Below, piece by piece: positions 15,360-29,276 of a DNA stretch of 33,295 nt (positions within the stretch are counted from its first letter, which is position 1; every line of letters starts with the position of its first letter). The stretch comes from a virus, in the IMG/VR virus record IMGVR_UViG_3300030328_002917, positions 1-33,295 of that record. One strand, given 5' to 3'. Under the pieces are notes generated by a model that saw only the letters and a program-made list of their open reading frames with translations, was not told the DNA's origin and made no database searches. A program made the position numbers and the translations under genes.

Positions 15360-15379
15360 CCCCCCTCCGAAGAGGGGGG
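15360..15379 (-). terminator. Hyperstable UUCG hairpin between genes (copy 1)
   Basis: CCCCCCTC (15360-15367) and GAGGGGGG (15372-15379) form a perfect 8-bp stem around a 4-nt loop that reads C(UUCG)G in minus-strand RNA, one of the most stable RNA tetraloops. It follows the stop of the 110-residue gene and precedes the next ATG (15347). A C/A-rich stretch precedes it and no U-tract follows, so RNA stabilisation or processing is as likely as termination. Confidence 0.6.
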
Positions 15380-15393
15380 ACTTGGTTTTTGTT

Positions 15394-15726: not shown

Positions 15727-15759
15727 GGTTTATTAGTCTTTCTATTTTGGTGTTTTGTT

Positions 15760-15975: not shown

Positions 15976-15988
15976 TTGTATAAAGGTG

Positions 15989-16008
15989 CCCCCCTCCGAA
16001 GAGGGGGG
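15989..16008 (-). terminator. Hyperstable UUCG hairpin between genes (copy 2)
   Basis: Same 8-bp stem and C(UUCG)G loop in RNA as the copy at 15360-15379, with the flanking sequence conserved on both sides. It sits between the stop of the VWA gene (16023) and the ATG at 15975. Confidence 0.6.
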
Positions 16009-16022
16009 ACTTGGTTTTGTTT

Positions 16023-17399
16023 TTATATGACAAGCTCACGCATGTCGATTACTTGGCTGTTAGGCCATTGGGGGTATTCTTCGGGGTCGAGCCCGAAGGT
16101 CATCCACAGCACTGGATATGGCGGGGCCTCTTCAGGGAAAGGACCGTAACCATCAGTGAAGTAGACCATTGCCTTAGGTGTGGTAGGGCAAGGTGGGTCA
16201 CCTGCTCCGCCTTTAGCCCACTCAAAAGGTGGGCGGAAGTCGGTGCCTCCACGACCATGTGCAGAGAAGTCGATCTTATCATTGGGTCCATACTCTTGTA
16301 TGAGCCCACTAAGATCGGTGTCTATGTCGAGCACCCAGAGGCGCTGTATCTTGACCGTCTCCATCGCTGCCTGAATTTCAGAGCAGGACTGCGACAGCCA
16401 ATCTGTGTACATCGATCCTGACGTATCTTTAGAGAAGACGATGTCTAGGACCACCGGGGTTTCGATGGCCTCAATAAACATGTCGTCGCCTACGAAGCGT
16501 CGGTCAAATGCGTCCTCGGAGATGTCCGTAGCTGAAGTATTGAGGATGAACCTTTGCAGGATAGACTTCCAGTCCACCCCTGCGCGGGTACGCTCAAGTT
16601 CCTCCACGAGGTTACCGGGAAAATCCCCCTTCAGTCTAGCCACTTGGGCAATAGACTGCTGGGTTCCTTCCCATTTATCCCGCAGCTCCTTTAAGGCTTC
16701 TGCAGGAGTACGGGACTTGGACTTACTTTCATCCTCATCTTCGTCCCCGTCTTTAGGGGGAACGGCTGGGGGTGCGGTAAATCCGCCCGGAGACTTGAAC
16801 TTACTCCACTTTGCTAAGGAGCCCTTTCCGGTACCGGGCTTAGAGCCCTTCCCGTCCTTGGATCCATCTCCGGATTGGTTCCCGTCTTTTTCCTCGTCGT
16901 CTTGCTCCGTCATCAGCTTATTATAGATCACCTCTTCTGAGTCGTTGCCGAACTTATTAGAGGTGATTATTTCCGCCCCGGGAGGGTTAGCGGGCAGCTG
17001 AATGAACGCGGAGGATGCAGACAACTTAGAGATAAAGGCATTGATACGAATGTCCGTAGCAATGTTAGCGACCATATGGTCTGCGCCTTTGAATCTCCAG
17101 AAATGCAGCCATAGGCAGTGGAACATTTCATGGAACATTAGCCCGATCTTTTGGTGATCGTTATTAATATTCCAGAAGTCTGGGTTCACCCATACTGAGT
17201 ACCCATCCGTACAAGCTGTATCGCCTGCGTGTTTCCCCTTGAGATCAAGGATATATCGCACACATATACAGCCTGGTAGGAATGTACTAAGCACATTACA
17301 CGTGGCAATGTGCTTAGAGAGGCGGTTGATATCGGCATCTAACTCTTCTTGAGTAGAGACGATTCTCTTGTTGGTTTGGTATAACGTAGTGTTATTCAT
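16023..17399 (-). CDS. DUF2201-like protein: metallopeptidase-like N-terminus plus VWA domain
   Basis: 458 residues. The N-terminal domain has MFHEMFHCLWLH (HExxH at residues 90-94) followed by NIATDIRIN (112-120), the hallmark of DUF2201-type putative metallopeptidase domains. A Lys/Asp/Ser-rich linker (about 165-235) leads to a VWA domain with a MIDAS motif DTSGS (325-329) and VLDIDTDLSG further on. The family architecture (zincin-like + VWA) typically works with a MoxR-type AAA ATPase, which is encoded immediately upstream here at 17720-18874 with one small gene between. The role is inferred to be an ATP-driven protein remodelling or metal-insertion module; the phage substrate is unknown. 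Confidence 0.85.
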   Translation of the reverse strand: MNNTTLYQTNKRIVSTQEELDADINRLSKHIATCNVLSTFLPGCICVRYILDLKGKHAGDTACTDGYSVWVNPDFWNINNDHQKIGLMFHEMFHCLWLHFWRFKGADHMVANIATDIRINAFISKLSASSAFIQLPANPPGAEIITSNKFGNDSEEVIYNKLMTEQDDEEKDGNQSGDGSKDGKGSKPGTGKGSLAKWSKFKSPGGFTAPPAVPPKDGDEDEDESKSKSRTPAEALKELRDKWEGTQQSIAQVARLKGDFPGNLVEELERTRAGVDWKSILQRFILNTSATDISEDAFDRRFVGDDMFIEAIETPVVLDIVFSKDTSGSMYTDWLSQSCSEIQAAMETVKIQRLWVLDIDTDLSGLIQEYGPNDKIDFSAHGRGGTDFRPPFEWAKGGAGDPPCPTTPKAMVYFTDGYGPFPEEAPPYPVLWMTFGLDPEEYPQWPNSQVIDMRELVI

Positions 17400-17408
17400 T
17401 TGGTAGTT

Positions 17409-17430
17409 TTGGCGGTTTACGATCCGCCAA
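17409..17430 (-). promoter_or_regulatory. Leader hairpin before the VWA gene
   Basis: TTGGCGG (17409-17415) pairs with CCGCCAA (17424-17430) around an 8-nt loop, 10 bases before the ATG at 17399. It shares the GGTTTACG/ATCCGCCAACG framework with the leaders at 18872 and 20350, so it belongs to the same leader family but with altered, still-paired stem bases. Confidence 0.5.
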
Positions 17431-17439
17431 CGGTTTGTT

Positions 17440-17733
17440 TTAGGTTGTCATTCGTTTATGCATCTCGGCTGCAATGACAAGCAGCGCGGGATTGTGTTTT
17501 GCTACTTCCACAAGTACGCGGGTGTATAGCCAGCGTTGGACATCACGAGGATGGTCAAGTGTGGAGCGGCGAACGTGTCCGAGGTAAATTCCAGCCTCCA
17601 GCTCCCATCGGGAGAGTGACCAGATGGAGAAGTTAACGGACACGAAGAATTCCCTCCCGGGGACCTTTTCAGGGTCCCCGGGGGGAACTAAGAGCGCCTC
17701 TAGTAAGGCTTCGTCTGACTTAGCCACGGCCAA
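17440..17733 (-). CDS. Hypothetical protein between MoxR and VWA genes
   Basis: 97 residues from a TTG at 17733, or 95 from the GTG at 17727; the start overlaps the end of the MoxR gene by up to 14 bases. The middle has VSVNFSIWSLSRWELEAGIYLGHV and a helical Val/Ala-rich C-terminus ending HKRMTT. No family recognised. Its position inside the MoxR/VWA pair suggests an accessory of that module. Confidence 0.65.
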   Translation of the reverse strand: MAVAKSDEALLEALLVPPGDPEKVPGREFFVSVNFSIWSLSRWELEAGIYLGHVRRSTLDHPRDVQRWLYTRVLVEVAKHNPALLVIAAEMHKRMTT

Positions 17734-18874
17734 TGATGTCCATGGCGTTAGCAGCCATCCACTTTACCATGCGGGGCTCGCTCTTTAGTTTAGGCTTCTG
17801 GTTGCAGATGGACTTGGCAACGAATGTTCCCAAGAATCCGCCCCTACCAGTCAGGCGTTCCGCTACGGTCATAACGGCTTCCAAGTTGGACTTGGTGGCC
17901 TCTCCCGCTAACTTGCAGGCAATGACCCAGATCTTGGTCACTTCCTTCGGGAGCTTACAACCTTTTGGATCCTTCAAAAGGTCTTCGATGGATCCAATAG
18001 CTTCGAAGATCTTGAGAAACTCAAGAGCCTTCCCTGTAGCCTTGTAGCCCAAGATGGCGTTGACCTTGGCCTTGAACAGGCGGTCAGACTCCACGGGCTT
18101 GAGAGTGCGACGATCTCCATCGACCTTTACAAGGTCGGTGTTGATCAGCTTTCCAAACTCCTCCAGCGATCTGAAGCTGGCGTAGTTGGACTTACCATCC
18201 CACTTGCTGGGCTCAATATCGAAGGGCACGTCATTGTTTGACCTCATGAAGGCAAACAATTCCGGATACAGCCCCACTTCAGCGAGCCAGTTCTGGAACG
18301 TCTCCATGTCTGGCTGAACCCTGTAGAACGCCATTCTGTTGGCATTCGACAGAGGCATACGCTCAGACATGCAACCGTCGTCAAGGCCGTTGGCCACGGC
18401 AATGTGCAGGGTATTCTCCGGAAAGTGGAGGCTACCGATGCTATTGTCGTTCATAGCCTGCTTGCACATCTTGAACATGGGCAAGCTTGCATCCAACAGT
18501 TCCTCCCAGTTAATGCAGATGGCATCATCTTCATTAATGCCCGGGAGGGCCTTGAACGGGAACTCATCGTTACCGTAGTAGCGAGAAGAACCAACTTCGC
18601 GGTCAATGGCAGGGATTCTGACATCCGAGGGCAGATAACTGCCTGCACGTACGTCAAAGTACTTCCTGCCAAGCTTGCCTGACACAAGCAACGCAATCTC
18701 CGACTTTCCTACACCCGGAGGTGAGAGGAAAAGCGGGGTCGTAAGACCACGGCGATGCCCTTTGTTTTCAAGTGACCACCGAAGGCGGTTGTCGTGAGAC
18801 TCAATTATCGCGGAGATGTCTCCGGGAGTAATTGTGATAATCTCGTTCTCTTTGTTGTCGTTTTTGGTACTCAT
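17720..18874 (-). CDS. MoxR-type AAA ATPase
   Basis: 384 residues. Walker A is SPPGVGKSE (51-59). The Walker B segment reads ICINWEELLDA (119-129), with the usual Asp-Glu partly replaced (W in place of D, E-E following), so hydrolysis may be slow or use an adjacent Glu. HIAVANGLDDG (157-167) matches sensor 1, and NANRMAFY (177-184) the Arg-finger/NR region typical of MoxR proteins. It most likely drives the VWA protein (16023-17399) as in MoxR-VWA systems. The start has the AUACCUAUG context and the leader shared with 20350. Function in phage unknown. Confidence 0.8.
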   Translation of the reverse strand: MSTKNDNKENEIITITPGDISAIIESHDNRLRWSLENKGHRRGLTTPLFLSPPGVGKSEIALLVSGKLGRKYFDVRAGSYLPSDVRIPAIDREVGSSRYYGNDEFPFKALPGINEDDAICINWEELLDASLPMFKMCKQAMNDNSIGSLHFPENTLHIAVANGLDDGCMSERMPLSNANRMAFYRVQPDMETFQNWLAEVGLYPELFAFMRSNNDVPFDIEPSKWDGKSNYASFRSLEEFGKLINTDLVKVDGDRRTLKPVESDRLFKAKVNAILGYKATGKALEFLKIFEAIGSIEDLLKDPKGCKLPKEVTKIWVIACKLAGEATKSNLEAVMTVAERLTGRGGFLGTFVAKSICNQKPKLKSEPRMVKWMAANAMDIIGRG

Positions 18875-18909
18875 AGGTATGATTGCGGTTTACGTTCGCC
18901 AACGTTTTG
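18872..18909 (-). promoter_or_regulatory. Conserved 5' leader, type 1 (copy 1)
   Basis: The 38 bases 18872-18909, including the start codon and AUACCUAUG, are identical to 20350-20387. Between them lies a small hairpin, ACGTT (18892-18896) with AACGT (18901-18905) around CGCC. A GGTTT-rich run precedes it in plus-strand sense (C/A-rich in mRNA). Identity of a noncoding leader before two different genes points to a shared translation or RNA-processing signal. Confidence 0.7.
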
Positions 18910-18968
18910 GTTTGGTTTGGTTTGGTTCGGGGGATTTTACTCTGGTTTAGGGGGATTTGGGTTTTAAA

Positions 18969-18986
18969 GGGGGTCTAGCGACCCCC
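18969..18986 (-). terminator. GC hairpin after stop codon
   Basis: GGGGGTC (18969-18975) pairs with GACCCCC (18980-18986) around TAGC. In minus-strand RNA the stem is followed by UUUAAAACCC. It sits 10 bases after the stop of the 451-residue gene and may terminate or pause transcription. Confidence 0.55.
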
Positions 18987-18996
18987 CGTGATTTGG

Positions 18997-20352
18997 TTAG
19001 GCTTGATCCCTCATATAGAGGGAGGCAGCCATCTGCTCGTACTTCCACTCATCGGGGTATTGCCCGAAGAGCTTAGGTAAGTTGCAGCCAATTTGACCGA
19101 GGACATTCTCATAATGCTCCTTGTTCCTGCGGGCCCAATAAAAGCTGAAAGACCTAATGTTGTGGTCTACAAACTTAAAGGGCACGTAGTTGAACTCAGC
19201 CTTCATGTTATGTCCAACCAGCCAGTCTGACTCAGGTGACTCCCACTTCAGCAGAATCTCCTTATGTTCGTCAGACAGCTCACTGTTCACCGCAAAGGTG
19301 CTGTTTGAGTGGTGGTAGCTCCAAGTGTTGTGTACAGCAATACCCCTGCGTCTAATGGAGTCGCCTACATCAACCCAGTCGCTCTTTTGTCCGACGTCCT
19401 CAATGTCCCCTATAGTGTCCTTATACCGGACATTCCAAGCTTCATCGGCCGGGGTCGTCACAGACGCGCAGATACTATCTGGAGCAGCCGCCAAGTTTTG
19501 GAACACATTAGAGGCTACCTCCAGCTGATGGGACTTCATGTTGAAGTCCGCCATGTATGCGAGGAGATCCTCCAGTGGCGTATAGGCATGTCCCGCCTCC
19601 TCTAAGGAGGTAGGGGCAAAATACCCTTCTGCCTGTTTTTGGATCTCTTCAACCATGTTGTGTGCGCTTGTGTCAAAGGCCTGCTTAAGCTGACCTAAGG
19701 CCATAGTCATGGACCCCAATACCTGCTCTCGCTGGACAGCCCCATAAGCCAGAGAGGTTATTACCCTCTCAAATGGCTCAATGAAGCCGTTCTTGTAGAC
19801 GTCGGGGATTCCGCAGTCTTCCGCCTTCACATGCTTGTGCATGCTCCGTGCCCAGTCTGTGTTGGAACGGGACGTGTGTAAACACCAGTCTAAACGGGTT
19901 GTACCGTTTTCGGGGTGCTTACCCCGCACAAGGCACTTAGTCGCGAGTGCTGTAGGCTTTTCCACAGCGATCTTACGCTTCTGGTTGAACTTCATCATCA
20001 CCCTTACTGCCGGGAAAGGGCAGCAATGGGTATCAGACTCATGGGCCGACAACTTATGGCCGTTTTCGTCGAATTCGACGCCTCCCAGCTCCTTTACCCA
20101 TCTCCACATCACATTGTTGTGAATACGTTCACAATCATTGAATGTGCGAGAGGGCATATGCCGAGACATCCCATTTCCATTGTATGGATTTCCCCAGTCC
20201 ACAACGAAGTTGTTGCAGTGAGAAATAATAGGATGGAACAGCTTATCGTTGTCCTTGAACCATAAGGTTCTACCAGCCAAACGGAAACGGGCTGTTGAGG
20301 CCCGTCCATCTGGATCTTTACACGCGGTGTCTATTAGTTTTTCTAGTTTCAT
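18997..20352 (-). CDS. Hypothetical protein (451 aa)
   Basis: No family recognised. The N-terminal third is rich in Arg, Lys, His and Trp with several Cys/His (HESDTHCCPFP about 106-116), the middle is helical (MALGQLKQAFDTSAHNMVEEIQKQ), and the C-terminal third is aromatic and His-rich (NTWSYHHSNSTFAVN, WARRNKEHYENVLGQ). It could be a nucleic-acid-associated protein, but no motif decides this. It is between the MoxR gene and a gene pair led by a DUF3150-like protein, so it may belong to the same module. Start context AUACCUAUG supports the chosen ATG. Confidence 0.75.
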   Translation of the reverse strand: MKLEKLIDTACKDPDGRASTARFRLAGRTLWFKDNDKLFHPIISHCNNFVVDWGNPYNGNGMSRHMPSRTFNDCERIHNNVMWRWVKELGGVEFDENGHKLSAHESDTHCCPFPAVRVMMKFNQKRKIAVEKPTALATKCLVRGKHPENGTTRLDWCLHTSRSNTDWARSMHKHVKAEDCGIPDVYKNGFIEPFERVITSLAYGAVQREQVLGSMTMALGQLKQAFDTSAHNMVEEIQKQAEGYFAPTSLEEAGHAYTPLEDLLAYMADFNMKSHQLEVASNVFQNLAAAPDSICASVTTPADEAWNVRYKDTIGDIEDVGQKSDWVDVGDSIRRRGIAVHNTWSYHHSNSTFAVNSELSDEHKEILLKWESPESDWLVGHNMKAEFNYVPFKFVDHNIRSFSFYWARRNKEHYENVLGQIGCNLPKLFGQYPDEWKYEQMAASLYMRDQA

Positions 20353-20387
20353 AGGTATGATTGCGGTTTACGTTCGCCAACGTTTTG
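20350..20387 (-). promoter_or_regulatory. Conserved 5' leader, type 1 (copy 2)
   Basis: 38 bases identical to 18872-18909, again ending in AUACCUAUG at the start of the next gene (451 aa), with ACGTT (20370-20374) and AACGT (20379-20383) forming the small hairpin. Confidence 0.7.
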
Positions 20388-20410
20388 TTTTGGTTTGGTT
20401 TTTGGGGGGT

Positions 20411-20800
20411 TTATTCAGGAAGGGCTACGCCCTTCTTCTCAACTTCCTCATCTGATAAGTCAGATGCGAGGACGTTGACCTCAAAGATATCGCGTACGAT
20501 CTCCTTGAGAGGTTCGGCTTCCTTCGACCGAAGTCCGCCTAGTTTAGACATGATGTCCGTATAGGAGATCATGTCGTGATAGTGAGCCGGGGCTTCTTCC
20601 TTAGGAGACTCCTCTAGGAGGTCCTTAAGGGGGAACCCGAGGGGAGTCCCCCTGCTACCCTTCTTTCGAAGGGTAACAAGGGGGTCACCGTAGAGGATAC
20701 CGTCCCCTCCAGCTACATCGGTCATAGTGAGGGTTACTATATAGTCTTCCCCACTAATCTCGGTTTCCCTGACTATTGGCTTGGTTAGCTTAGTTGCCAT
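20411..20800 (-). CDS. Hypothetical protein (129 aa)
   Basis: The ATG at 20800 lies one base after the upstream stop codon (TAA T ATG), so it is preferred over an ATG at 20836 that would overlap the upstream gene by 35 bases. The protein starts MATKLTKPIVRETEISGEDY and has a strand-rich first half (YIVTLTMTDVAGG) and an acidic helical end (ASDLSDEEVEKKG). No family recognised; probably coupled to the DUF3150-like gene. Confidence 0.7.
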   Translation of the reverse strand: MATKLTKPIVRETEISGEDYIVTLTMTDVAGGDGILYGDPLVTLRKKGSRGTPLGFPLKDLLEESPKEEAPAHYHDMISYTDIMSKLGGLRSKEAEPLKEIVRDIFEVNVLASDLSDEEVEKKGVALPE

Positions 20801-20801
20801 A

Positions 20802-21737
20802 TTAGAAGTGAAGTTTGCTGAGGATTTCTTCAGCATTCGACTTTACTTCAACGCGGGCCTCCTCGTTTCCTTTGAGGATGTCCACGTCCCAGTGGCCCAG
20901 AGTCCTAATTTCAGCGCAGAGTTCGACAAGCCTGTCGCTCTCTCCGATGATCATATCGGGGACTCTTTCTGCAAGATCCATAACGTTGCCGAGGATTGAG
21001 TCATGCATTCTATTGCCTGAACCCTCCTCGTACGTCTTCATCTTGTCCCTGAGCTTTGTCAGGGCATCGACGATGCGCTCCTCAAGCTGCTGGTTGGCAG
21101 CAGACATGATGTGGGCTTCGTCCTGTTTGATGCGCTCACGGATACCTTTGATGATGTCCGTGGAGACACCCCGAAGATTGCCCGAAGGCAAGCTGTCCTC
21201 CTTAAAGTCAAAGACATAGAAAGGAGACATGTCTTCCGCAGACCGGGAGAACCACTTGAGTTGACTAGACGTAAGCTGGTCAAACAAACACACTCCCTGC
21301 GAGTTACGCTGATTGCGTAACGCCTTTTCGGATTCCGGGCGGATCTCAGATTCCCATTTGGACAAGAACTCAGACTTGAGGTTGTCAAACTGGGGAACCG
21401 CCTGCGCAACAAACTCCTGAACACGGAAGTAGTTTCCCGAACTGATCAACGTCTTCTTATCCAGATTGGATGTATTCTTGGCGAAGAACGTTCGGATTTC
21501 TTTTTCTATGTCCAGTAGCGGCTTAAGGTAACTCTGCTCCAGTAGATAAGTCCCGCCTGTGGTCTTATCCATGTCGCATCCGAACTTTTCGGCTACGGCA
21601 CGTTGGGCAGCTTTAACCTTTCCCGTCGGGTTCCTAACAGCAACGCTCATGCGATAGCTGATTGCGAACTCCGACAGGCACACCGGATTCTCTTCCAGTG
21701 CAGGCTGTTGGTCTTGGTCAAGAGTAGTATTACTCAT
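20802..21737 (-). CDS. DUF3150-like protein
   Basis: 311 residues, soluble and mostly helical, with a Lys/Asp/Glu-rich N-terminal half and a C-terminal coiled-coil-like region (QLEERIVDALTKLRDKMK). It shows the general look of the DUF3150 phage proteins that commonly lie beside MoxR and VWA genes: an early strand-plus-helix segment (VCLSEFAISYRMSVAV), a long helical middle and a conserved aromatic/Asp segment (SPFYVFDFKEDS). The assignment rests on gene neighbourhood and overall pattern, so it is moderate. The start lies next to the divergent regulatory region at 21738-21855. Confidence 0.6.
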   Translation of the reverse strand: MSNTTLDQDQQPALEENPVCLSEFAISYRMSVAVRNPTGKVKAAQRAVAEKFGCDMDKTTGGTYLLEQSYLKPLLDIEKEIRTFFAKNTSNLDKKTLISSGNYFRVQEFVAQAVPQFDNLKSEFLSKWESEIRPESEKALRNQRNSQGVCLFDQLTSSQLKWFSRSAEDMSPFYVFDFKEDSLPSGNLRGVSTDIIKGIRERIKQDEAHIMSAANQQLEERIVDALTKLRDKMKTYEEGSGNRMHDSILGNVMDLAERVPDMIIGESDRLVELCAEIRTLGHWDVDILKGNEEARVEVKSNAEEILSKLHF

Positions 21738-21855
21738 GGGTATTATGACGGTGTTTAATGACCTGTCTCGTCAGTTTGGTTTAGAAAGGTAGTATTTTAT
21801 ACTACCGGTATTCTACTCCCTTGCAAGTTGGGAGAAGAAAATTATATTAAAAAGC
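21738..21855. promoter_or_regulatory. Divergent regulatory region with operator palindrome
   Basis: A palindrome GGTAGTAT (21788-21795) / ATACTACC (21799-21806) with a 3-base centre sits between divergent genes. TTGCAA (21821-21826) is itself palindromic and can serve as -35 in both directions: on the plus strand TATATT (21843-21848) follows after 16 bases, and on the minus strand TATAAA (21801-21796) lies 19 bases away, inside the palindrome. The plus-strand -10 is only 7 bases from the ATG at 21856, so its mRNA would be almost leaderless. Promoter calls are by eye and modest. Confidence 0.5.
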
Positions 21856-22449
21856 ATGGCAAAACGTGGTCGTCCCCCAAAAGATGATGTCCCATGGGAA
21901 GACATAAAGAACGCTTACATGCTCGGTGAGCCTTGTGGCGTGATTTGTGAGAGATACCCAGGACTAAAACCCGGTACCTTAAGGTCTCGCGCTTCACGCG
22001 AAGGCTGGACTACTCCGCGCAACATTAAACAGAAGTTGGCGGAGAGGGTAAATGCGGTAAAAGTAGCTGAGCTTACGGGGGAGTTAACCCCCACCCAAGC
22101 TAATGGCCAGATTAACCAGCTTGATGCCGTTGTAGAAACGCTGGCCGAGCGCCAAGCTGAGCACCGTAAAACGATAGCCCGTATTACGGAGAAAAAGTTT
22201 AACAAACACAAATTACCTCCAATTAAGACGTGGAGGGATGCCGACATTGCCGACAAGATGGCGCGTCGGGCGCTCGAAATGGATTCCGATACGCCCGACG
22301 CAGTCATCAATGTCGGTGTACTAGGTGGGGGAGCCGTCGTAGACGAATACCCCCAGCCTGAGGTATCACCAGCCGGGATACATGGAGATTCCGTGCATCA
22401 CATAGCAGAGGCCTCCGAAGAGGAGGACCATACCGCCAATAACGACTAG
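21856..22449 (+). CDS. DNA-binding protein, small-terminase-like or regulator
   Basis: 197 residues. It begins MAKRGRPPKDD, containing an AT-hook-like RGRPPK, then a helix-turn-helix-like segment (DIKNAYMLGE ... RYPGLKPGTLRSRASREGW, about 16-51), followed by a long helical region (ELTPTQANGQINQL, VETLAERQAEHRKT) and an acidic, His-rich tail. This layout (HTH plus coiled-coil linker) is shared by small terminase subunits and by some phage regulators. It is one of only two plus-strand genes in an otherwise minus-strand block and sits on its own divergent promoter, which favours a regulatory role; no large terminase is adjacent. Its last 84 bases overlap the minus-strand gene at 22366. Confidence 0.6.
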   Translation: MAKRGRPPKDDVPWEDIKNAYMLGEPCGVICERYPGLKPGTLRSRASREGWTTPRNIKQKLAERVNAVKVAELTGELTPTQANGQINQLDAVVETLAERQAEHRKTIARITEKKFNKHKLPPIKTWRDADIADKMARRALEMDSDTPDAVINVGVLGGGAVVDEYPQPEVSPAGIHGDSVHHIAEASEEEDHTANND

Positions 22450-22704
22450 GTAGTATAGGGCAGCTTTTACGCAGTCCCATACAGGCGTCTCTTCCTTGAC
22501 GCCGTAGAGCCTGAGGATCCTCTTAAGCTCTGAGGCTTTAAGGTTTGGGGGACAGTGTCCGAAGTAATCGGATAGCTGATCCTGCAACTCCTTTCGGTCC
22601 CGCCTCAGGTAGTCCGTGCGTTGGGCATACATACGATGCCTAACATCTTCCCAAGGACAATCCTCTAGGTCTGGTTCTATTTGGTATTCTAATGGGTTAC
22701 TCAT
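22366..22704 (-). CDS. Single-span membrane protein
   Basis: 112 residues. The first 80 are charged and helical (HRMYAQRTDYLRRDRKELQ), then a membrane helix runs from about residue 81 to 104 (ALYYLVVIGGMVLLFGGLCY), leaving a short tail ending PGW: a tail-anchored type II-like topology. No motif assigns a function. Its 3' 84 bases overlap the plus-strand gene ending at 22449, an antisense arrangement. Confidence 0.7.
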   Translation of the reverse strand: MSNPLEYQIEPDLEDCPWEDVRHRMYAQRTDYLRRDRKELQDQLSDYFGHCPPNLKASELKRILRLYGVKEETPVWDCVKAALYYLVVIGGMVLLFGGLCYVMHGISMYPGW

Positions 22705-22707
22705 AGG

Positions 22708-23148
22708 TTAGTCCTCCACTAGTTCTAGGGTTTCTACCGCACTGGTGGCGGCATCCTCCACAGCACCTCCAAGGAACTCCAGCAAGTCCTTGTCAGGACC
22801 CTTGCCATACTCCCATTGGATCATTGTGGAGCACCATGTCCCCATAGCCTTCGCCATTAGCTCCCATATAGCGGGAGGCAGGGTGCGAAGTGGGGGCATA
22901 TCTACGTGACAGAAGAGCCCGTCCCCAAACTCGGGGTTAAGGACTTCTTCATAGGGGACACCTCTTGCCAGCTTTTGCAGGCCAGCTAGGTAGTGTTCCC
23001 GATACGCGTTGATGCGCCTGTCTAAGACGCCCTCTTCCATCCCCCACTTAATGTAGTCCTTCAGTATTCGAAGGAAGCGGTCATGTTCAAAGACCATGTT
23101 CTCCGTTAAACGGAGGGATGCTTCGGTTTCGTTGAGTTCTTTGCTCAT
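22708..23148 (-). CDS. Hypothetical protein (146 aa)
   Basis: Helical, with EHDRFLRILKDYIKWGMEEG early and LPPAIWELMAKAMGTWCSTM late, ending acidic (ETLELVED). Three bases separate its stop from the next gene's start. No family recognised. Confidence 0.65.
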   Translation of the reverse strand: MSKELNETEASLRLTENMVFEHDRFLRILKDYIKWGMEEGVLDRRINAYREHYLAGLQKLARGVPYEEVLNPEFGDGLFCHVDMPPLRTLPPAIWELMAKAMGTWCSTMIQWEYGKGPDKDLLEFLGGAVEDAATSAVETLELVED

Positions 23149-23180
23149 ATGTATATGTGACAGTATTTAATAAGACCTGT

Positions 23181-23792
23181 CTAGTCTGTTTTGTTTTCTT
23201 CCCCGTGGAGGTTAAGTACCTCTTGGAGACGTTTGTCGAGTTGCCACAAAACGGTTTTCACCGCTGTTTTCCCTTCAAGCTCCCGTGCCGCATCCTCAAT
23301 GGCATACTGAGCAAGCTCACGTAAGCTTGTGTCGGCATCAAGGAATGCTTGAGCCTCCCTTGCCATGTCTACTAGTCCAACTGCTTGGACCCGCAGAACT
23401 GCATCAATGAGCACCTCCACAGGATTAGGCTCCCTAGGCTCCTCATCCTCTTCTAGCTGATCCGCGAGGTCGGCAAACTCGGCGGGGGATAACTCCGCTG
23501 TAGGATCGGCAAAGTCATCCGTTCGGGAGCCATCCAAACCATAGAGATCCTTACACTTCCATATCTCAGGGTCGTTAAGAACGACCTGAAGGTCTGGAGT
23601 CTGAGTCTTCCCCGGTGCAGGAGGGGCCTCCTTAGGAGGAGTATTGAACGTGCTGGACGTGTTAACGCCGCACTGTTCAGTCAGCTCATCTTCTTCCATG
23701 ATTATAAGAAGGTTCACTAAAGAGTTAATCCCTTTAGCTCCCTGTTCTATATTCTCACGGAGTGCTATTATTTGTTCTATCGGTATGTTCAT
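23181..23792 (-). CDS. Hypothetical protein (203 aa), acidic
   Basis: N-terminal helix (NIPIEQIIALRENIEQ), a Pro-rich linker (PPKEAPPAPGKTQTP, about 51-66) and a long acidic helical second half (SPAEFADLADQLEEDEEPRE). It looks like a flexible adaptor or regulator with no enzymatic motif. Start context AUACCUAUG-like (AUUAUACCUAUG). No family recognised. Confidence 0.65.
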   Translation of the reverse strand: MNIPIEQIIALRENIEQGAKGINSLVNLLIIMEEDELTEQCGVNTSSTFNTPPKEAPPAPGKTQTPDLQVVLNDPEIWKCKDLYGLDGSRTDDFADPTAELSPAEFADLADQLEEDEEPREPNPVEVLIDAVLRVQAVGLVDMAREAQAFLDADTSLRELAQYAIEDAARELEGKTAVKTVLWQLDKRLQEVLNLHGEENKTD

Positions 23793-23840
23793 AGGTATAA
23801 TTGGCTCTTTTAAGACCAGCCAAGTCTGTTTGGTTTGGTT
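23790..23840 (-). promoter_or_regulatory. Conserved 5' leader, type 2 (copy 1)
   Basis: The 42 bases 23799-23840 are identical to 25769-25810. In minus-strand RNA it contains a C/A-rich stretch, then TTGGC pairing with GCCAA around an inner TCTT/AAGA-containing loop, followed by AUACCUAUG at the start codon. It overlaps the stop codon of the upstream gene at 23839. Confidence 0.7.
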
Positions 23841-24222
23841 AGTCGTCTTTAGGCATGATTAGAAACCCCTGAACGCCCGCTGTTTGCTGGGCATCTATGC
23901 GTTTCTCAAACTCATCTAAAAGACTTGCTTCGTTGGTGTACAGTTTAGTGATAGCGCCCACAAATTGAGGGAACTCTGTTTGGAAGGCTGAAGCAAACTC
24001 AGCAAGGACGTCGTCTTTTATCTCGACTCCGTCATCGCGGAATGCCCAGCCCCATGTTTTATAGTCCTCTCCGAACCATATGATGCCCTTCATGTCATTA
24101 TTATCCATGAATTCCATCTTACGGTCAGCCGACTGCTCAAGGAAGTTCTTTCCTGAGTCATTGGATTCGGGCTTCTCATACCCTGCGAAGGATATGAGCC
24201 ACCCGTTTTGGTTGTCTAACAT
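23839..24222 (-). CDS. Hypothetical protein (127 aa)
   Basis: Contains a mixed, aromatic-rich sequence (LISFAGYEKPESNDSGKN, IIWFGEDYKTWGWAF) with a helical, acidic second half (LAEFASAFQTEFPQFVGAI). No motif recognised. Its start follows a long leader hairpin (24243-24280). Confidence 0.6.
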   Translation of the reverse strand: MLDNQNGWLISFAGYEKPESNDSGKNFLEQSADRKMEFMDNNDMKGIIWFGEDYKTWGWAFRDDGVEIKDDVLAEFASAFQTEFPQFVGAITKLYTNEASLLDEFEKRIDAQQTAGVQGFLIMPKDD

Positions 24223-24242
24223 AGGTATTTACTTTCTAAGCC

Positions 24243-24281
24243 CAAGCAGGGCACCCAGTGTTGAGTGCCCTGCTGTTGGGC
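24243..24281 (-). terminator. Long spacer hairpin (stem 6 + 9 bp)
   Basis: GCCCAA plus GCAGGGCAC on one side pairs with GTGCCCTGC plus TTGGGC on the other, with one 2-nt bulge and a 10-nt loop: the longest stem among these spacers. No U-tract follows in minus-strand RNA. It is located between the heptad repeat after one stop codon and the leader of the next gene. Confidence 0.5.
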
Positions 24282-24297
24282 GTTGGGTTTTGGGTTA
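24275..24297 (+). repeat. Heptanucleotide repeat at a stop codon
   Basis: GTTGGGC, GTTGGGT and TTTGGGT run in register into the stop codon (24295-24297) of the 137-residue gene; in mRNA this is UAA followed by C/A-rich heptads. Confidence 0.75.
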
Positions 24298-24708
24298 GAG
24301 TAACTCTCTTATGTCGTCAACTGTGAAGCTAACGTGCCTAGAGCGAAACTCTGAGCCTACGTGTTGTGGGATGTAACAAGCCGCGTAGCTTGCAACCTTG
24401 TCGAAGTCTGGTGCAACTATGCTCAACTTCTTGGCAATGTTGAGAGTGGCATTATCCCACTCATTGACTAACTCCATGTAGTTGGAGTGGCGGTCAGGAA
24501 ATTCCCGCCGCAACAGGTAGTCATTCACGGGTAGCCCCAACTCCTTGAGGTCATCCTTGGCCATCTTAGCAAGGATGTTGTGCTTCCCACGATATTCCTG
24601 CGCTTCCTGTAGGGTGTTAAACCACACAGTAAGGTTGTCAGGATATTCAGACTCACGTATATACTGAGGCTCAAACCCCCAGTATGTATGCTCTATTGGT
24701 TCTTTCAT
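24295..24708 (-). CDS. Hypothetical protein (137 aa)
   Basis: Basic/aromatic first half (EHTYWGFEPQYIRESEY, VWFNTLQEAQEYRGKHN) and a helical second half ending DDIRELL. The start sits in a shifted version of the same context (CATACCTAAGTTATG). No family recognised. Confidence 0.6.
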   Translation of the reverse strand: MKEPIEHTYWGFEPQYIRESEYPDNLTVWFNTLQEAQEYRGKHNILAKMAKDDLKELGLPVNDYLLRREFPDRHSNYMELVNEWDNATLNIAKKLSIVAPDFDKVASYAACYIPQHVGSEFRSRHVSFTVDDIRELL

Positions 24709-24762
24709 AACTTAGGTATGTTGTGCCCTCGCTTGTTGATAGGGGGAGGGCATTCCCTTAGT

Positions 24763-24783
24763 GTTGGGTGTTGGGTGTTGGGT
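24763..24783 (+). repeat. Heptanucleotide (GTTGGGT) repeat at a stop codon
   Basis: Three perfect GTTGGGT heptads end at the stop codon (24783-24785) of the basic 86-residue gene. Together with an upstream G-run (GGGGGAGGG) they give four G3 tracts on the plus strand. Confidence 0.8.
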
Positions 24784-25043
24784 TACTTGCGTTGGGAACG
24801 CTTTGCCTTCACCGCAGCCTTCCTCTCCTTCTTGGAAAGGGAGAGCTTATCTTTCTTTGGAGAGGACTCCTTCATCTCTTTGCTATACTTAGCAACGAGC
24901 CTGAGGACCTTCTCCATGTGTCCGGGGGAAGCCTCAGTAAACTGAGATGCTTCCTCTACGATTTTAGCCAGCTCCTCGGTGGAGGTGGCTTTCTTGATAC
25001 GGGTAAAGCACCCGTCGTTGGTGTTTATGGTTAATGTAGCCAT
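24783..25043 (-). CDS. Small basic-tailed protein (86 aa)
   Basis: Helical middle (TSTEELAKIVEEASQF, MEKVLRLVAKYSKEMKE) followed by a strongly Lys-rich C-terminus (SLSKKERKAAVKAKRSQRK), typical of nucleic-acid-binding tails. No family recognised. The start is preceded by the GCCCCC hairpin at 25076. Confidence 0.6.
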   Translation of the reverse strand: MATLTINTNDGCFTRIKKATSTEELAKIVEEASQFTEASPGHMEKVLRLVAKYSKEMKESSPKKDKLSLSKKERKAAVKAKRSQRK

Positions 25044-25075
25044 ATGTATTTTTGGTTTATTAGGTTTAATTAAGT

Positions 25076-25098
25076 GCCCCCTGTTCAGGGGAGGGGGC
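25076..25098 (-). terminator. GCCCCCT/AGGGGGC spacer hairpin
   Basis: GCCCCCT (25076-25082) pairs with AGGGGGC (25092-25098). Inner CCCCTG/CAGGGG repeats allow an alternative stem. It lies 15 bases after the stop of the 215-residue gene. Confidence 0.5.
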
Positions 25099-25112
25099 GA
25101 CCCCGTGGTTGT

Positions 25113-25760
25113 TTAGCAACAGCTTTTAGCTAAGCGACGCTCGCCATTCAGGTACTTGTTTCGCAGGATTTCCATATGATCCTCAATGGGCCTGATGATC
25201 TTTTCGATCAAAGGCTCAAGATTATCAATGAAACTGCTAAACGCGGCCTCTCCATGTCCCTCGGCAATAAGCCTACGGGCGTGTGTGTACTGTTGGAATA
25301 TCACCGTAGCGAGTGTTCCACTCTGGTAGTCCCCGAATGGGTGCTTCATTGTGGAATTACGCGAGGCGTATACGTTGTAGTAGTTAAGACCACTGAAGGC
25401 CTCGTCTACCATTAGGTGCAAGGCGTGTGCCTCTTCCTCAGCCTGCTTGAGCGCAGGCAGCTTCTCCTTGTTGATCAAAGATTCAAAGAGAACCTTTGTG
25501 TAAGGAGCCCCACAGTCCATCGACGCCCAGTTACTCTTGGAGTAAGGGCTCTCAGGCCTCCCCATCTTTGCCTCAGAGAAGTCCTCGTAGAGGCGCTCAA
25601 TGGAGTGATATGGGTGGAACCACACGCGCGGATGCGCAGGGTGCACGTAGGATTTCTCGGCCACTTGCAGCTTGGTAACCACAATGTCGAGAACAGTCGC
25701 GTGCAGCTCCTTATAGAGCTGCCTGCGAGTTTCGCTGTTGTTTAGGGCTTTTTTAGCCAT
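25113..25760 (-). CDS. Hypothetical protein (215 aa)
   Basis: The ATG at 25760 (MAKKALNNSETRR) is preferred over one 33 bases upstream because it carries the AUACCUAUG context and the type 2 leader. The protein has a helical N-terminus, an aromatic/His-rich middle (SYVHPAHPRVWFHPYHS, SKSNWASMDCG) and a helical second half (KQAEEEAHALHLMVDEAF) ending in KSCC. The His-rich middle could bind metal but no catalytic pattern is clear. Confidence 0.65.
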   Translation of the reverse strand: MAKKALNNSETRRQLYKELHATVLDIVVTKLQVAEKSYVHPAHPRVWFHPYHSIERLYEDFSEAKMGRPESPYSKSNWASMDCGAPYTKVLFESLINKEKLPALKQAEEEAHALHLMVDEAFSGLNYYNVYASRNSTMKHPFGDYQSGTLATVIFQQYTHARRLIAEGHGEAAFSSFIDNLEPLIEKIIRPIEDHMEILRNKYLNGERRLAKSCC

Positions 25761-25768
25761 AGGTATGT

Positions 25769-25810
25769 AATTGGCTCTTTTAAGACCAGCCAAGTCTGTT
25801 TGGTTTGGTT
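25769..25810 (-). promoter_or_regulatory. Conserved 5' leader, type 2 (copy 2)
   Basis: 42 bases identical to 23799-23840, with the same small hairpin and C/A-rich approach, just before AUACCUAUG at 25760. Confidence 0.7.
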
Positions 25811-25827
25811 GGGTCTCTTGACCCCTC

Positions 25828-25863
25828 CTGCCAACGAGAAGCCCGAAGGCTCCCCGCTGGCAG
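25828..25863 (-). ncRNA. Structured intergenic RNA element with C(UUCG)G loop (copy A)
   Basis: CTGCCA (25828-25833) pairs with TGGCAG (25858-25863); inside, AGCC (25840-25843) pairs with GGCT (25848-25851) around a loop reading UUCG in minus-strand RNA. The element at 26816-26847 keeps the same outer frame but swaps the closing A-U for U-A, preserving the pair. It lies between gene 25915-26136 and gene 25113-25760, with a GCCCCCT hairpin (25870-25892) beside it. Confidence 0.55.
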
Positions 25864-25869
25864 ACTGGG

Positions 25870-25892
25870 GCCCCCTTTTCAGGGCAGGGGGC
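25870..25892 (-). terminator. GCCCCCT/AGGGGGC spacer hairpin
   Basis: GCCCCCT (25870-25876) pairs with AGGGGGC (25886-25892); same stem sequence as at 25076, after the stop at 25915. Confidence 0.5.
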
Positions 25893-25914
25893 GGTCCCGT
25901 GAGGTTACAGGTGA

Positions 25915-26136
25915 TTACTCACACCCATACATGTGGAGGGAGGGGGAGAAGCCGATGCGATCTATGAGCTGCTCGCGCAGGGCACATACATCAACAGGCT
26001 TTTCCATGGTGTCCACCTCTCCCTTGGGGAGGACGAACACACAACCATCCACTTCTACCATGGCGTCTCCTGAAGGAAGCACTTCCATTGAGGGAGTGCT
26101 GGAGGGCCATTCCGTTCTAGTTTCGAAGTTAGGCAT
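25915..26136 (-). CDS. Small hypothetical protein (73 aa)
   Basis: A Pro/Ser-rich N-terminus (RTEWPSSTPSMEVLPSGD) leads to a strand-rich middle (MVEVDGCVFVLPKGEVD) and a helical end. It contains two Cys. No family recognised; consistent spacing and hairpins at both ends support it. Confidence 0.55.
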   Translation of the reverse strand: MPNFETRTEWPSSTPSMEVLPSGDAMVEVDGCVFVLPKGEVDTMEKPVDVCALREQLIDRIGFSPSLHMYGCE

Positions 26137-26141
26137 TTGTC

Positions 26142-26363
26142 TTACTTGTTGGTTCCGTTAGAGTTACCGACGTTATCAAACGCCGCCGACATACAACCGA
26201 AGGAGCCACCTTGGCGGCTCTTCCGGTTGTTGAATGAATTGACGCGTGCCTGTTCTTCAGCACGGTCAATGTCTTCTTGGGAGTAGTTACCCCCAAGTAT
26301 CTCGTTAGATGCCCGCATTGTGTCTGGGTCACAGGCACGACGGGTGTTTTTGTGTTTAGCCAT
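26142..26363 (-). CDS. Small hypothetical protein (73 aa)
   Basis: MAKHKNTRRACDPDTMRAS followed by an acidic helix (SQEDIDRAEEQARVN) and an Asn/Ser/Gly-rich C-terminus. The chosen frame matches the spacing of its neighbours and starts after a GCCCCC hairpin. No family recognised. Confidence 0.55.
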   Translation of the reverse strand: MAKHKNTRRACDPDTMRASNEILGGNYSQEDIDRAEEQARVNSFNNRKSRQGGSFGCMSAAFDNVGNSNGTNK

Positions 26364-26380
26364 AGCTATTGGTATAGATT

Positions 26381-26403
26381 GCCCCCTCTCAAGGGTGGGG
26401 GGC
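26381..26403 (-). terminator. GCCCCC/GGGGGC spacer hairpin
   Basis: GCCCCC (26381-26386) pairs with GGGGGC (26398-26403), with an inner CCCT/AGGG alternative. It lies between stop 26420 and start 26363. Confidence 0.5.
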
Positions 26404-26419
26404 GTTACCCTAGGACACC

Positions 26420-26746
26420 TCAGCTCTTCTTCCGGGTGAAGGGGAGGATACGGCGGAGGAAGGACTCAGCCTTCTTTTCTTCCGTGCTGGTCACGTCGGT
26501 GACCTTCGCAAGCTTCACAGGCTCCTTGCCCATGTTTGTAGCCAGCTGGTGACGCCTACGCATCATCTCAGCCCTGTAGTTGGCCTGCTCCTTGGCCAGT
26601 GCCTTACGCTCCCGGATAGCCCGGAGCTTCTCAGCCTTGTCCTTGTCCCTGTTTTCCTGCACCTTCCGCTTGGCGACGATGCGCCTAGCAGCCTTCTTTT
26701 CACCAACGCGCACAGCGTGCTGGTTCTGTTGGGTTTTTGTTCTCAT
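26420..26746 (-). CDS. Basic coiled-coil protein (108 aa)
   Basis: Highly Lys/Arg-rich, with long helical stretches (EKKAARRIVAKRKVQENRD, KAEKLRAIRERKALAKEQA) and a C-terminal basic/Phe end (RRILPFTRKKS). It probably binds nucleic acid. The start has the AUACCUAUG context; its first codons MRTKT match those of the Gp88-like gene at 14431. Confidence 0.6.
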   Translation of the reverse strand: MRTKTQQNQHAVRVGEKKAARRIVAKRKVQENRDKDKAEKLRAIRERKALAKEQANYRAEMMRRRHQLATNMGKEPVKLAKVTDVTSTEEKKAESFLRRILPFTRKKS

Positions 26747-26765
26747 AGGTATCTATGGTTTTTGC

Positions 26766-26787
26766 CGGGGGGCTCGGTTCCCGGCGG
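26766..26787. terminator. GC hairpin in spacer
   Basis: GCCGGG pairs with CCCGGC across about 10 bases, shortly before the ATG of the basic protein in minus-strand RNA. It is followed by T-rich sequence on the plus strand and A-rich sequence in the minus-strand RNA, so it is not a clear minus-strand terminator. Confidence 0.35.
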
Positions 26788-26815
26788 GTATTTTATTTAG
26801 TTTAATAAGCCCATC

Positions 26816-26847
26816 CTGCCTACGGAGAATCTCTCCCCCATAGGCAG
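26816..26847 (-). ncRNA. Structured intergenic RNA element (copy B)
   Basis: CTGCCT (26816-26821) pairs with AGGCAG (26842-26847), with GGAGA (26824-26828) and TCTCC (26832-26836) forming an inner stem around three bases. The framework CCTGCC-ACG-AGAA...CCCC...GGCAGACTGG is shared with 25828-25863, but the stem bases differ while staying paired, which is the signature of a selected RNA structure. Confidence 0.55.
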
Positions 26848-26861
26848 ACTGGACCCATTAT

Positions 26862-26889
26862 GTTGGGTGTTGGGTGTTGGATGTTGGGT
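26862..26889 (+). repeat. Heptanucleotide (GTTGGGT) repeat at a stop codon
   Basis: Four heptads (GTTGGGT, GTTGGGT, GTTGGAT, GTTGGGT) end at the stop codon of the 124-residue gene (26889-26891). Confidence 0.8.
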
Positions 26890-27263
26890 TAGTTACAGCA
26901 CGTATCCTCCTCCTCGTACTCGTCATTTGTAGTCAGAAAGCCCGATTCCTCAAGCTTTGTCAGGACTCTGTTGTGCATGTCTTCAAACTCATATTTACTG
27001 GTATTCGTGTAAATATGGGGGCTTGCCATGCGCTGGAGTTCGGCAATGTCTCCGAGGAGTTCCCTTATGGCTGGGATCCTCTTATTCGCGCCGTCCACCA
27101 TCCACTGAGTTTCTACAATCTCTTGCGCTAACGCGTCAAGGTCTGTAGACCCGTCAGTGGGACAATTCCGTAAGTGCCGGAGGTGACATTCGTTCTCACG
27201 AAGCTCTCCCCGGCACTCTACGAGCTGCTGGTTCAGTTCATCTTTACATTCATCTATTGTCAT
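26889..27263 (-). CDS. Hypothetical protein, Cys-rich ends (124 aa)
   Basis: A helical, charged protein beginning MTIDECKDELNQQLVECRG and containing CHLRHLRNC; it ends EEEDTCCN. The N-terminal C-x8-C and H/C-rich segment (about 19-34) could form a small metal site, but spacing is not that of a known zinc finger. Start context is a variant (AACCUAUG). No family recognised. Confidence 0.6.
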   Translation of the reverse strand: MTIDECKDELNQQLVECRGELRENECHLRHLRNCPTDGSTDLDALAQEIVETQWMVDGANKRIPAIRELLGDIAELQRMASPHIYTNTSKYEFEDMHNRVLTKLEESGFLTTNDEYEEEDTCCN

Positions 27264-27380
27264 AGGTTTATTATGTTTTGGTATAGTTGCCGGGATGGCC
27301 TCCCAGCGGGGGTTTGTCCAAGTGTAAGGACATTGAGGAGGCCCACATCGCTTGCGTGATAGTGGGCCCCCGTGATGTCA
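27264..27380 (-). promoter_or_regulatory. Spacer with two hairpins
   Basis: TGTCC (27315-27319) pairs with GGACA (27328-27332), and GGCCCAC (27340-27346) with GTGGGCC (27362-27368). No gene fits this interval. Confidence 0.4.
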
Positions 27381-27674
27381 CTACTCGTGGTTGGGGCCTC
27401 GGTAATGAACGGTATCGTATCCGATACGCTTCAGGGCTGCATGGCTGAGCTTGGACTTGGTCTGGTAAACAATGCCGACATTGGTCATAGACAATCCCTT
27501 GCTGGCATTATAACCAGTCCAGCCGCTCGGCTGTACATCCCGGCGGTCCTTGACCTCGCCCTCCTTGCGCTTCTTCGCCTCAAAGCGTGCGACAGCTAGT
27601 TTCTGCCGTGCTTCGGGAGATAGAGACAAGAGGTGTGGGCTAAGAGTCCGCCTCTTCTTATTACGTTTAGACAT
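27381..27674 (-). CDS. Basic hypothetical protein (97 aa)
   Basis: Very basic N-terminus (MSKRNKKRRTLSPHLLSLS), a helical Lys-rich middle (RFEAKKRKEGEVKDRRD) and a Gly/Tyr-rich C-terminal half (SGWTGYNASKGLSMTNVGIVYQT). Likely a nucleic-acid-associated protein. It is the first gene downstream of the large structured RNA region on the same strand; the RNA could be its very long 5' leader or an independent transcript. Confidence 0.6.
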   Translation of the reverse strand: MSKRNKKRRTLSPHLLSLSPEARQKLAVARFEAKKRKEGEVKDRRDVQPSGWTGYNASKGLSMTNVGIVYQTKSKLSHAALKRIGYDTVHYRGPNHE

Positions 27675-27689
27675 AATGGTTCATGGTTA

Positions 27690-28905
27690 AGGTTAGAATG
27701 GTATGGGGGTTTGAAATTGGATTAGCGATGTTGCTAAATCGGTTATGCAACGCTCCTGTTCTGGAGTCCGTTGCGGTGTAAGGTTTGTGTATCCTAGACC
27801 GCACCCAATCGCGGCCGTCACCTCTGCTTGTATTGACGGTAGTCTAAGCAGAACTCAACTCTTCTTTACCCGTAGATCGTCATTACCAGTCGTTTCGTCC
27901 TTCGGTAATGCCCCTCAGTGCCCTGTAGATGCAGGGATCCCCAACGTTGGGTGTTGGGTTCCGGGTGTTGAGTATTGGGTGCGGGTGGTTAGGATCACAC
28001 ATCATCCACCTTGGATGATGTCAACTGCACTACTATCGTGCAGGTTAAGGTTATGTTCGTGCCGACCATGGAAGCAAACCAAACTTCCGTTCATCAACGC
28101 CAAGCGGGTCTTTCCCGCCTAAAGGCTAATTGATCCGTATACTAGCTGAATCATCTCTCCCCAGAGATGACGCCACTTTTCCTGAGTCGCCTAGCGACTG
28201 TAACCCCGTCTAAGGGCCAGGAGGCGTAGAGTATTCACGCCTAGACAAGCATAGTAGGACTAAGGAGACACACGGTTCCCTACCCAGAGCGTATTCCAAC
28301 GCCCAAAGAACTTAAATCCTAAGTCCAATGCTTCTTCCACAATGGCACTCCCTTGCAAGGCTTCGCGGGATGCTACGCCTCTAGGCTTTGCTTAGTGTGC
28401 TCAGTCGCACGTGATAGTGACGTGCGAAAGGTGGGTTATGGAGGATGTCCAATCCCTTGATTGTGAGTTTGAACTGTGAGCACGCAATGGCTCTCCGTAG
28501 AGTTCTCCGGGGCAGGTAGATGGATCAACAATACCTCCATAGCAACGCCTATGAGGTTGTAGAGTTAATTGCAACGTTTGGTGTTTGTTAGGGTCGAAAA
28601 GTCCTAGCCAACACTCAAAGCCGAGGTTTCCCTACAGCTCCGCCCCAATACCTCCGCTTCCAAGGTCATGCAGTGTTGTATCGCGCGTAATCCATGCCCA
28701 ACCCGGCTCGCGTGATAGGGTTCCCCTATACAGGCCGAATGGCAGTTCAAAACTCAGGTTCTGTAAGTTCTCAAGGTTTCGCTAATCAATCCCGGTTAGA
28801 CTTATCCGGCTGGGATGATTGCGCTAGTGGGGGCAATCGCCCGGTAATGCTTTCCGCATTCCACTGGTCAAGCGCTGACGTATCAACGGGAATCTTGACA
28901 ACAAA
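27690..28905 (-). ncRNA. Candidate large structured noncoding RNA (about 1.2 kb)
   Basis: No convincing protein frame runs through this 1.2 kb, but inverted repeats fill it. Clear stems (plus-strand coordinates): 27747-27774, 27823-27829/27846-27852, 27881-27887/27904-27910, 27999-28007/28013-28021 (9 bp), 28025-28030/28038-28043, 28104-28118, 28151-28158/28163-28170 (8 bp, loop 4), 28185-28190/28194-28199, 28222-28227/28237-28242, 28405-28412/28420-28427 (8 bp), 28538-28553, 28581-28592/28603-28614 (12 bp, one mismatch), 28680-28687/28709-28716, 28817-28822/28833-28838 and 28846-28860. Hairpin loops are purine-rich on the minus strand (GGAAA, AAAGA, GGGG), the usual sign of the transcribed sense. 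A terminator at 28906-28935 ends the upstream gene. A heptad array (27946-27980) lies inside. Size and setting recall phage-borne GOLLD/ROOL-class RNAs, without a verified match. No tRNA is evident. Confidence 0.65.
27946..27980 (+). repeat. Degenerate heptanucleotide repeat inside the candidate RNA
   Basis: Five in-register heptads (GTTGGGT, GTTGGGT, TCCGGGT, GTTGAGT, ATTGGGT), the same unit as after the stop codons at 24783 and 26889, here not near a gene end. A 12-bp palindrome CCCAACGTTGGG (27940-27951) overlaps the first unit. Confidence 0.7.
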
Positions 28906-28935
28906 AAGGGGTGAACCGTTTCCGGTTCACCCCTT
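28899..28935 (-). terminator. Strong rho-independent terminator, minus strand
   Basis: A perfect 13-bp stem, AAGGGGTGAACCG (28906-28918) with CGGTTCACCCCTT (28923-28935), has a loop that reads GAAA in minus-strand RNA. The stem is followed by UUUGUUG, giving a run of five U with the stem end. It ends the transcript of the gene at 28960-29250. Confidence 0.9.
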
Positions 28936-28959: not shown

Positions 28960-29250
28960 TTACTTGGTAGCAGTCTTATCCAGCTGGGTAACGACTTCCT
29001 GTGCCGACTCAAGCGCCTTGAACAAGGCGCTAACTGGGGCAATATCACTGGCCTTAAAGCCCGCATCACGGCAAGCCTTGAATCCAATGAACTTGAAACC
29101 GTCTCCATGCTTACCCTTCTTCCGGGCAATGCCTTTGGCCTGTATACCCTTGACTGGGGCAATCATGTCCTTGGTTTCAGTTTTCTCTGCTACGATATTG
29201 ATATTGCTTTCAATATCATTTACTACGTTTTGTGCTTTTTCGCTTTTCAT
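28960..29250 (-). CDS. Small basic hypothetical protein
   Basis: 96 residues from the ATG at 29250 (MKSEKAQNVVNDIESN). A TTG start at 29286 would add 12 residues. The protein is Lys-rich with a Gly-containing middle (GIQAKGIARKKGKHGDGFKFIGFKACRDAGFK split across two strands) and a helical end (ALFKALESAQEVVTQLDK). No family recognised. A promoter whose -10 overlaps this ATG (29249-29254) would make a transcript starting inside the frame; then the next ATG (residue 29, MIAPVKG) would be the start. The strong terminator shows it forms its own transcription unit. Confidence 0.65.
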   Translation of the reverse strand: MKSEKAQNVVNDIESNINIVAEKTETKDMIAPVKGIQAKGIARKKGKHGDGFKFIGFKACRDAGFKASDIAPVSALFKALESAQEVVTQLDKTATK

Positions 29251-29276
29251 TATATATAGGACGCTACTAGCGTCAA
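29249..29276 (-). promoter_or_regulatory. Sigma70-like promoter with embedded operator palindrome
   Basis: On the minus strand TTGACG (29276-29271) and a perfect TATAAT (29254-29249) are separated by 16 bases. A 15-bp palindrome GACGCTA-C-TAGCGTC (29260-29274, plus strand) overlaps the -35 end and fills most of the spacer, a typical repressor site. The -10 overlaps the start codon of the gene at 29250. Confidence 0.6.

Follow-up and report, generated by a model that had tools for sequence, protein, structure and literature searches.

The minus strand of this viral DNA carries a real gene-free, hairpin-rich stretch, which is probably (at roughly 55%) an untranslated leader, or a processed non-coding RNA (ncRNA), heading a globally folded operon transcript. 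The window is the whole stretch of DNA that was analysed (33,295 nucleotides), taken from a parent virus record of 53,292 bases. The reading is built on the computed position of the gene-free region, its lack of genes, its recurrence in relatives, the folding of the operon together with its strand, and the open start codons. The gene-free region is not alone in its folding excess, and the operon-wide folding, which lay beyond the view of the first-pass annotation, is the more surprising fact of the two.

A long polycistronic minus-strand transcript would run from 28.9 to about 12.9 kb, with the gene-free region at its head. We infer that leader and operon are one transcript, in which the leader would end in a conserved structured domain of three helices (P1-P2-P3) immediately upstream of the first start codon. 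The whole transcript, coding genes included, would be selected at the RNA level to fold everywhere except at the ribosome entry sites. Most likely this would serve to keep a long phage RNA from single-strand-specific RNases, of host decay or of an RNA-targeting defence, or to keep it off the DNA template. The main features are as follows.

28960..29251, minus strand: small upstream gene, non-homologous between relatives
28906..28935, minus strand: intrinsic terminator of the upstream small gene (13-bp stem, GAAA loop)
27675..28905, minus strand: gene-free hairpin-rich untranslated region (putative leader or ncRNA), between the terminator and the operon's first gene
27381..27674, minus strand: first gene after the gene-free region (97 aa, basic), with its start codon at 27674
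12900..27690, minus strand: coding operon, transcribed strand globally folded by prediction (-8.4 kcal/160 nt vs dinucleotide shuffles)

Gene content, hairpins and borders of the stretch

The stretch had been described as gene-free and as packed with hairpins, and both descriptions hold. Coding potential was scored by the codon usage of the phage's genes, a hexamer coding model having been dropped as overfitted. None of the ORFs in 27600-28960 has an appreciable positive coding potential (the highest codon score is 1.9), and the 125-aa ORF at 27745-28122 scores -19.8. There are 3 perfect stems of at least 8 bp, against 0.10 expected, and 9 of at least 6 bp, against 2.4 expected; 0 of 100 dinucleotide shuffles reach 3 of the former and 0 of 100 reach 9 of the latter. 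The folding z-score of the region as a whole is -5.1 for the minus and -3.8 for the plus strand.

As had also been noted, the region begins right after a strong minus-strand terminator, the 13-bp stem of which lies at 28935-28906. At the other end, no terminator-like site was found on the minus strand between 28906 and the start of the 97-aa gene, which leaves an independent ncRNA with no advantage over a structured leader. The promoter proposed earlier for the stretch, TTGATA-17-TGGAAT, fails the consensus scan, in which the lone minus-strand promoter-like site is TTGACG-16-TATAAT at 29276-29249, over a palindrome. Furthermore, a conserved AT-rich element that is promoter-like in appearance lies upstream of the non-homologous small gene, at window positions 29328-29402 (TATTTAATACGTA...AAAATTTTACAGACA in relatives). 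A conserved non-coding block at 30031-30326, with inverted GGTGGAGATG/CATCTCCACC repeats and 72-78% identity in relatives, is strongly folded and possibly a replication origin or a regulatory site.

The region appears not to belong to a known RNA family. Membership of GOLLD or ROOL had been raised, but neither these nor any other Rfam covariance model, at gathering and at permissive thresholds (to E 5), gave a match in the window or in the L003, L005 and L007 regions of related contigs. No tRNA was found in the window. Compared with phage records by blastn, the region of the window and those of L005, L007 and L003 gave no match either, and the DNA motifs of the region were found in the same few contigs only in IMG/VR and in none of the bacterial genomes.

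The same locus in relatives and a likely RNA domain at its 3' end

A search with the primase led to ten contigs at 71-86% protein identity. Where the contigs reach, they share the order of primase, small genes, a repeat-rich stretch, a small gene, a strong terminator, a gene-free 0.8-1.2 kb and the operon. The gene-free region is found at the same position in L005, in L007/L009, in L003 (partial) and in L004/L008 (5' end only), and strong terminators stand at the matching place in L003, L004, L005, L007 and L008. Folding z-scores of four homologous gene-free regions range from -3.3 to -6.1. The strand bias of these regions is inconsistent (sense/antisense -5.5/-6.0 in the window, -5.3/-1.8 in L005 and -5.8/-4.2 in L007), which we counted against a leader heading the folded operon transcript.

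Besides the aligned 3' end, there is little sequence in common: L003 and L005 have 53 nt in common at 81% identity, and L007 and L008 have short hairpin segments in common. The locus appears to be fast-evolving, since the small gene is non-homologous and most of the gene-free sequence is unalignable. In L004 the variable locus ahead of the small gene holds an inserted gene (13240-14022) that looks, by eye, like a glycosyltransferase carrying a DXD motif. Gaps of 3-4 kb that seemed gene-free in the distant primase relatives L019-L026 were rejected, as the coding model fails there; the L019 stretch, as read, holds small genes and about 1 kb of non-coding DNA. This non-coding part (L019 12720-13810), with (GGC)n and TCTCCACTTCC repeats and 76% conserved among the distant relatives, is perhaps the counterpart of the window block 30031-30326.

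The last 280 nt of the gene-free region align in three phages (the window, L005 and L007), and the three-sequence alignment places the following elements in the window.

27990..27998, minus strand: P1, 5' strand (GTG-ATCCTA)
27975..27984, minus strand: P2, 5' strand (CCGCACCCAA), which runs into ACCCAAC heptamer repeats
27799..27808, minus strand: P2, 3' strand (TTGGGTGCGG)
27787..27796, minus strand: P1, 3' strand (TAGGATACAC)
27747..27774, minus strand: P3, terminal hairpin GCAACG...CGTTGC, before the conserved AGCAACA

P1 and P2 build a long closing helix around variable sequence, which is followed by P3, AGCAACA and the first start codon. Over the 25 pairs of P1-P2-P3, 97% of the cells are paired and five pairs are changed on both sides among the three sequences, while sliding the partner by 1-3 columns leaves at most 51% paired and zero double changes. 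Column shuffles come out as high as the alignment in 17 of 500 cases, so the support is moderate, drawn from three sequences, the same in which the helices were first seen. A conserved RNA domain at the 3' end of the region is thus likely.

Tandem ACCCAAC heptamers (on the transcribed strand; GTTGGGT on the plus strand) are found at further, mostly intergenic places. They lie in the window at 9659-9680, 24760-24785, 26861-26892 and 27940-27975 and in L005 at 16225-16258 and 18079-18109, and one set belongs to P2.

The earlier reading of the stretch as a large ncRNA can be weighed at this point. An independent, ornate phage RNA analogous to GOLLD or ROOL, with its own promoter or processed from the operon RNA, seems to us possible but doubtful. 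It would fit a gene-free, structured 0.8-1.2 kb that recurs at one locus in several relatives, and a conserved 3' domain with compensatory pairs beside a variable 5' part, as described for GOLLD (PMC12286853). On the other hand, the absence of Rfam matches to E 5 in the window and the relatives would make it at best a new class, neither a tRNA nearby nor a 3' terminator was found, and the folding of the operon equals or exceeds that of the region. The recurrence and the paired domain support part of the earlier reading, but not the idea of the region as an island of structure.

Predicted folding of the downstream operon

All structures reported here are predictions, and most tests used few shuffles (4 to 40 each). 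The folded block was first noticed in the window, and the tests in G003, G005 and the cultured phage Littlefix came afterwards. In the first scan, run as a control over the rest of the window, the transcribed strand lies about 6 to 11 kcal/160 nt below shuffles over 12.9-27.7 kb, the gene-free region 4.1, the replication genes 0.4 and the 3174-aa ORF about 2. In the operons of three phages the folding excess is -8.4, -6.7 and -9.2 kcal/160 nt, against -1.1 in a control region of the window's phage. In full-contig profiles each phage has a single folded block, in the syntenic position (12.8-29 kb in G000, 1-14 kb in G003 and 20-33 kb in G005).

When codons were shuffled synonymously, with protein and codon usage kept, 28 out of the 30 operon genes from three divergent phages folded better than their own shuffles by 4 kcal/160 nt or more. 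The averages elsewhere in the three genomes are -0.5 to -1.9 for late genes and -2.2 to -3.1 for replication genes. Folding in excess of shuffles had been named as a test of the ncRNA reading. The region does pass this test, but nearly all downstream coding genes pass it too, and more strongly, because of which excess folding over shuffles alone cannot nominate an ncRNA in such genomes.

Moreover, the long unpaired runs in the operon are 30% fewer than in synonymous shuffles, and the controls have no such reduction. Start codons are open, with a mean 50-nt energy of -4.0 at the AUG vs about -12 elsewhere. Many operon genes have a common leader without Shine-Dalgarno sequence, in which an A/C-rich stretch is followed by a small hairpin with a UAAA-type loop and then AUACCUAUG. 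It is found at the window starts 18874, 20352, 21737, 23792, 17399 and others, and in L005 around 17890. In 8 of the 9 completed comparisons of orthologues, the predicted shared base pairs do not exceed the null expected from codon identity; the ninth concerns two genes with 93% identity. What is conserved may, on these predictions, be foldedness and not specific stems, as in genome-scale ordered RNA structure.

The signal is one of RNA rather than of DNA. The sense strand folds more strongly than the antisense strand in the three operons (p 6e-4, 3e-4 and 8.5e-7), and the difference is gone when G-U pairs are forbidden; counts of stems of at least 8 bp failed to separate RNA from DNA, which the energies with and without G-U pairs did. 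GNRA loops on stems of at least 5 bp are found 25 times on the sense strand vs 9.4 expected and 9 times on the antisense strand vs 8.7 expected, and for UNCG loops the counts are 12 vs 2.0 and 3 vs 4.6. In terms of a GORS-type criterion, the energy is below both dinucleotide and synonymous-codon shuffles across the coding sequence of three genomes, and the effect belongs to the RNA sense strand and not to DNA palindromes, as seen from the G-U dependence and the tetraloops. Strand bias, tetraloops and open starts are together what one would expect of a translated RNA under selection for folding.

These results also bear on a DNA-level element, such as cruciforms, a replication origin or N4-type hairpin promoters for a virion RNA polymerase (vRNAP), which we regard as very improbable. 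Relatives of N4-like gp24/gp25 in the operon and a giant ORF convergent to it, in the manner of the N4 vRNAP, would be in line with such an element. Yet the strand bias of the operon depends on G-U pairs, the tetraloops are sense-only, and neither vRNAP nor RNAPII homologues were found in any ORF of the clade (hmmsearch, and hhalign vs the N4 and Littlefix vRNAP). The giant ORF itself (3174 aa, window 4-9528, plus strand; 3750 aa in G005) does not match vRNAP in sequence and lacks RNAP motifs B and C. N4-type polymerases as the cause of the folding are likewise unsupported, as neither vRNAP nor RNAPII was found in the clade.

Cells in general select for folded coding sequence, though more weakly, with little folding at starts and more in gene bodies (PMC7063772), and the operon may thus be the extreme of a known tendency. 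Ordinary translation-related selection on the coding sequence at an extreme value, with the gene-free region as a long 5' UTR, is in our judgement improbable. Its direction and shape, open starts and folded bodies, do fit the general profile, and in 40-nt windows the excess comes to about -1.2 to -1.7 for the operon, compared with -0.7 to -1.1 for other genes in these phages. Against this, the folding is confined to one operon per phage, reaches MS2-like values and includes an untranslated region.

No dinucleotide, UpA or other, stands out as specially hidden in the operon fold, so a specific RNase target gains no support. Under the preferred reading of a leader heading a folded operon transcript, we infer a shield against single-strand-specific RNases as the simplest gain.

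Comparison with known systems

RNA viruses are known for global RNA folding encoded at synonymous sites. Open-literature searches gave no report of such folding in one operon of a dsDNA phage. If the folding is real in cells, it offers a handle on why RNA viruses fold globally, because a laboratory phage would allow the question to be put to one gene at a time. We suggest only tentatively that a lineage of dsDNA phages, with N4-like cousins in which the trait is weaker, makes globally ordered operon RNAs with a kilobase structured leader and so survives RNA decay or RNA-targeting immunity.

GOLLD is often found near a tRNA island, and GOLLD and ROOL assemble into RNA nanocages. The gene-free region resembles both in being large, phage-encoded, structured and without genes, and resembles GOLLD also in its conserved 3' and variable 5' parts. 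Unlike them, it has no covariance-model match, no tRNA island and no 3' end signal, and the flanking coding RNA is equally folded.

The N4-like phages (Schitoviridae) have a virion RNA polymerase of about 3500 aa and a heterodimeric RNAPII (gp15/gp16), neither of which is detectable in this clade. They share with it the pair of a gp24-like ATPase and a VWA protein, the best phage matches of the operon ATPase gene being in N4-like phages, and a raised folding of early and middle genes. In the cultured Pseudomonas phage Littlefix (MG775260, 33.9-63 kb), early genes have -6.2 and middle genes -6.5, with strand bias (p 2e-5 and 1e-6), and late genes have -4.1 without strand bias, which points to a weaker form of the operon folding. 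N4 (L054/L053) has -5.6 in early and -3.9 in late genes, with a strand bias that is not significant, and -4.4 over the first 20 kb; LP14 and CB1 have -4.0 and -4.9 in their early/middle regions.

With the general selection on mRNA folding (PMC7063772), the operon has open start codons and more folded gene bodies in common, but its folding is much larger and restricted to one operon per phage. In the same folding test T7 has -1.5, the lambda late genes -2.5, T4 -3.1 and P-SSP7 -2.4 kcal/160 nt, and the RNA of the ssRNA phage MS2 has -13.0 on the sense and -10.5 on the antisense strand. By these predicted energies the operon looks nearly as folded as the genome of an RNA virus, which would be unusual for a virus with a DNA genome. 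Like MS2, it folds on the sense strand beyond shuffles across the coding sequence; unlike MS2, this concerns one operon of a dsDNA phage, at about two thirds of the MS2 strength at 160 nt, and the RNA is a message and not the genome.
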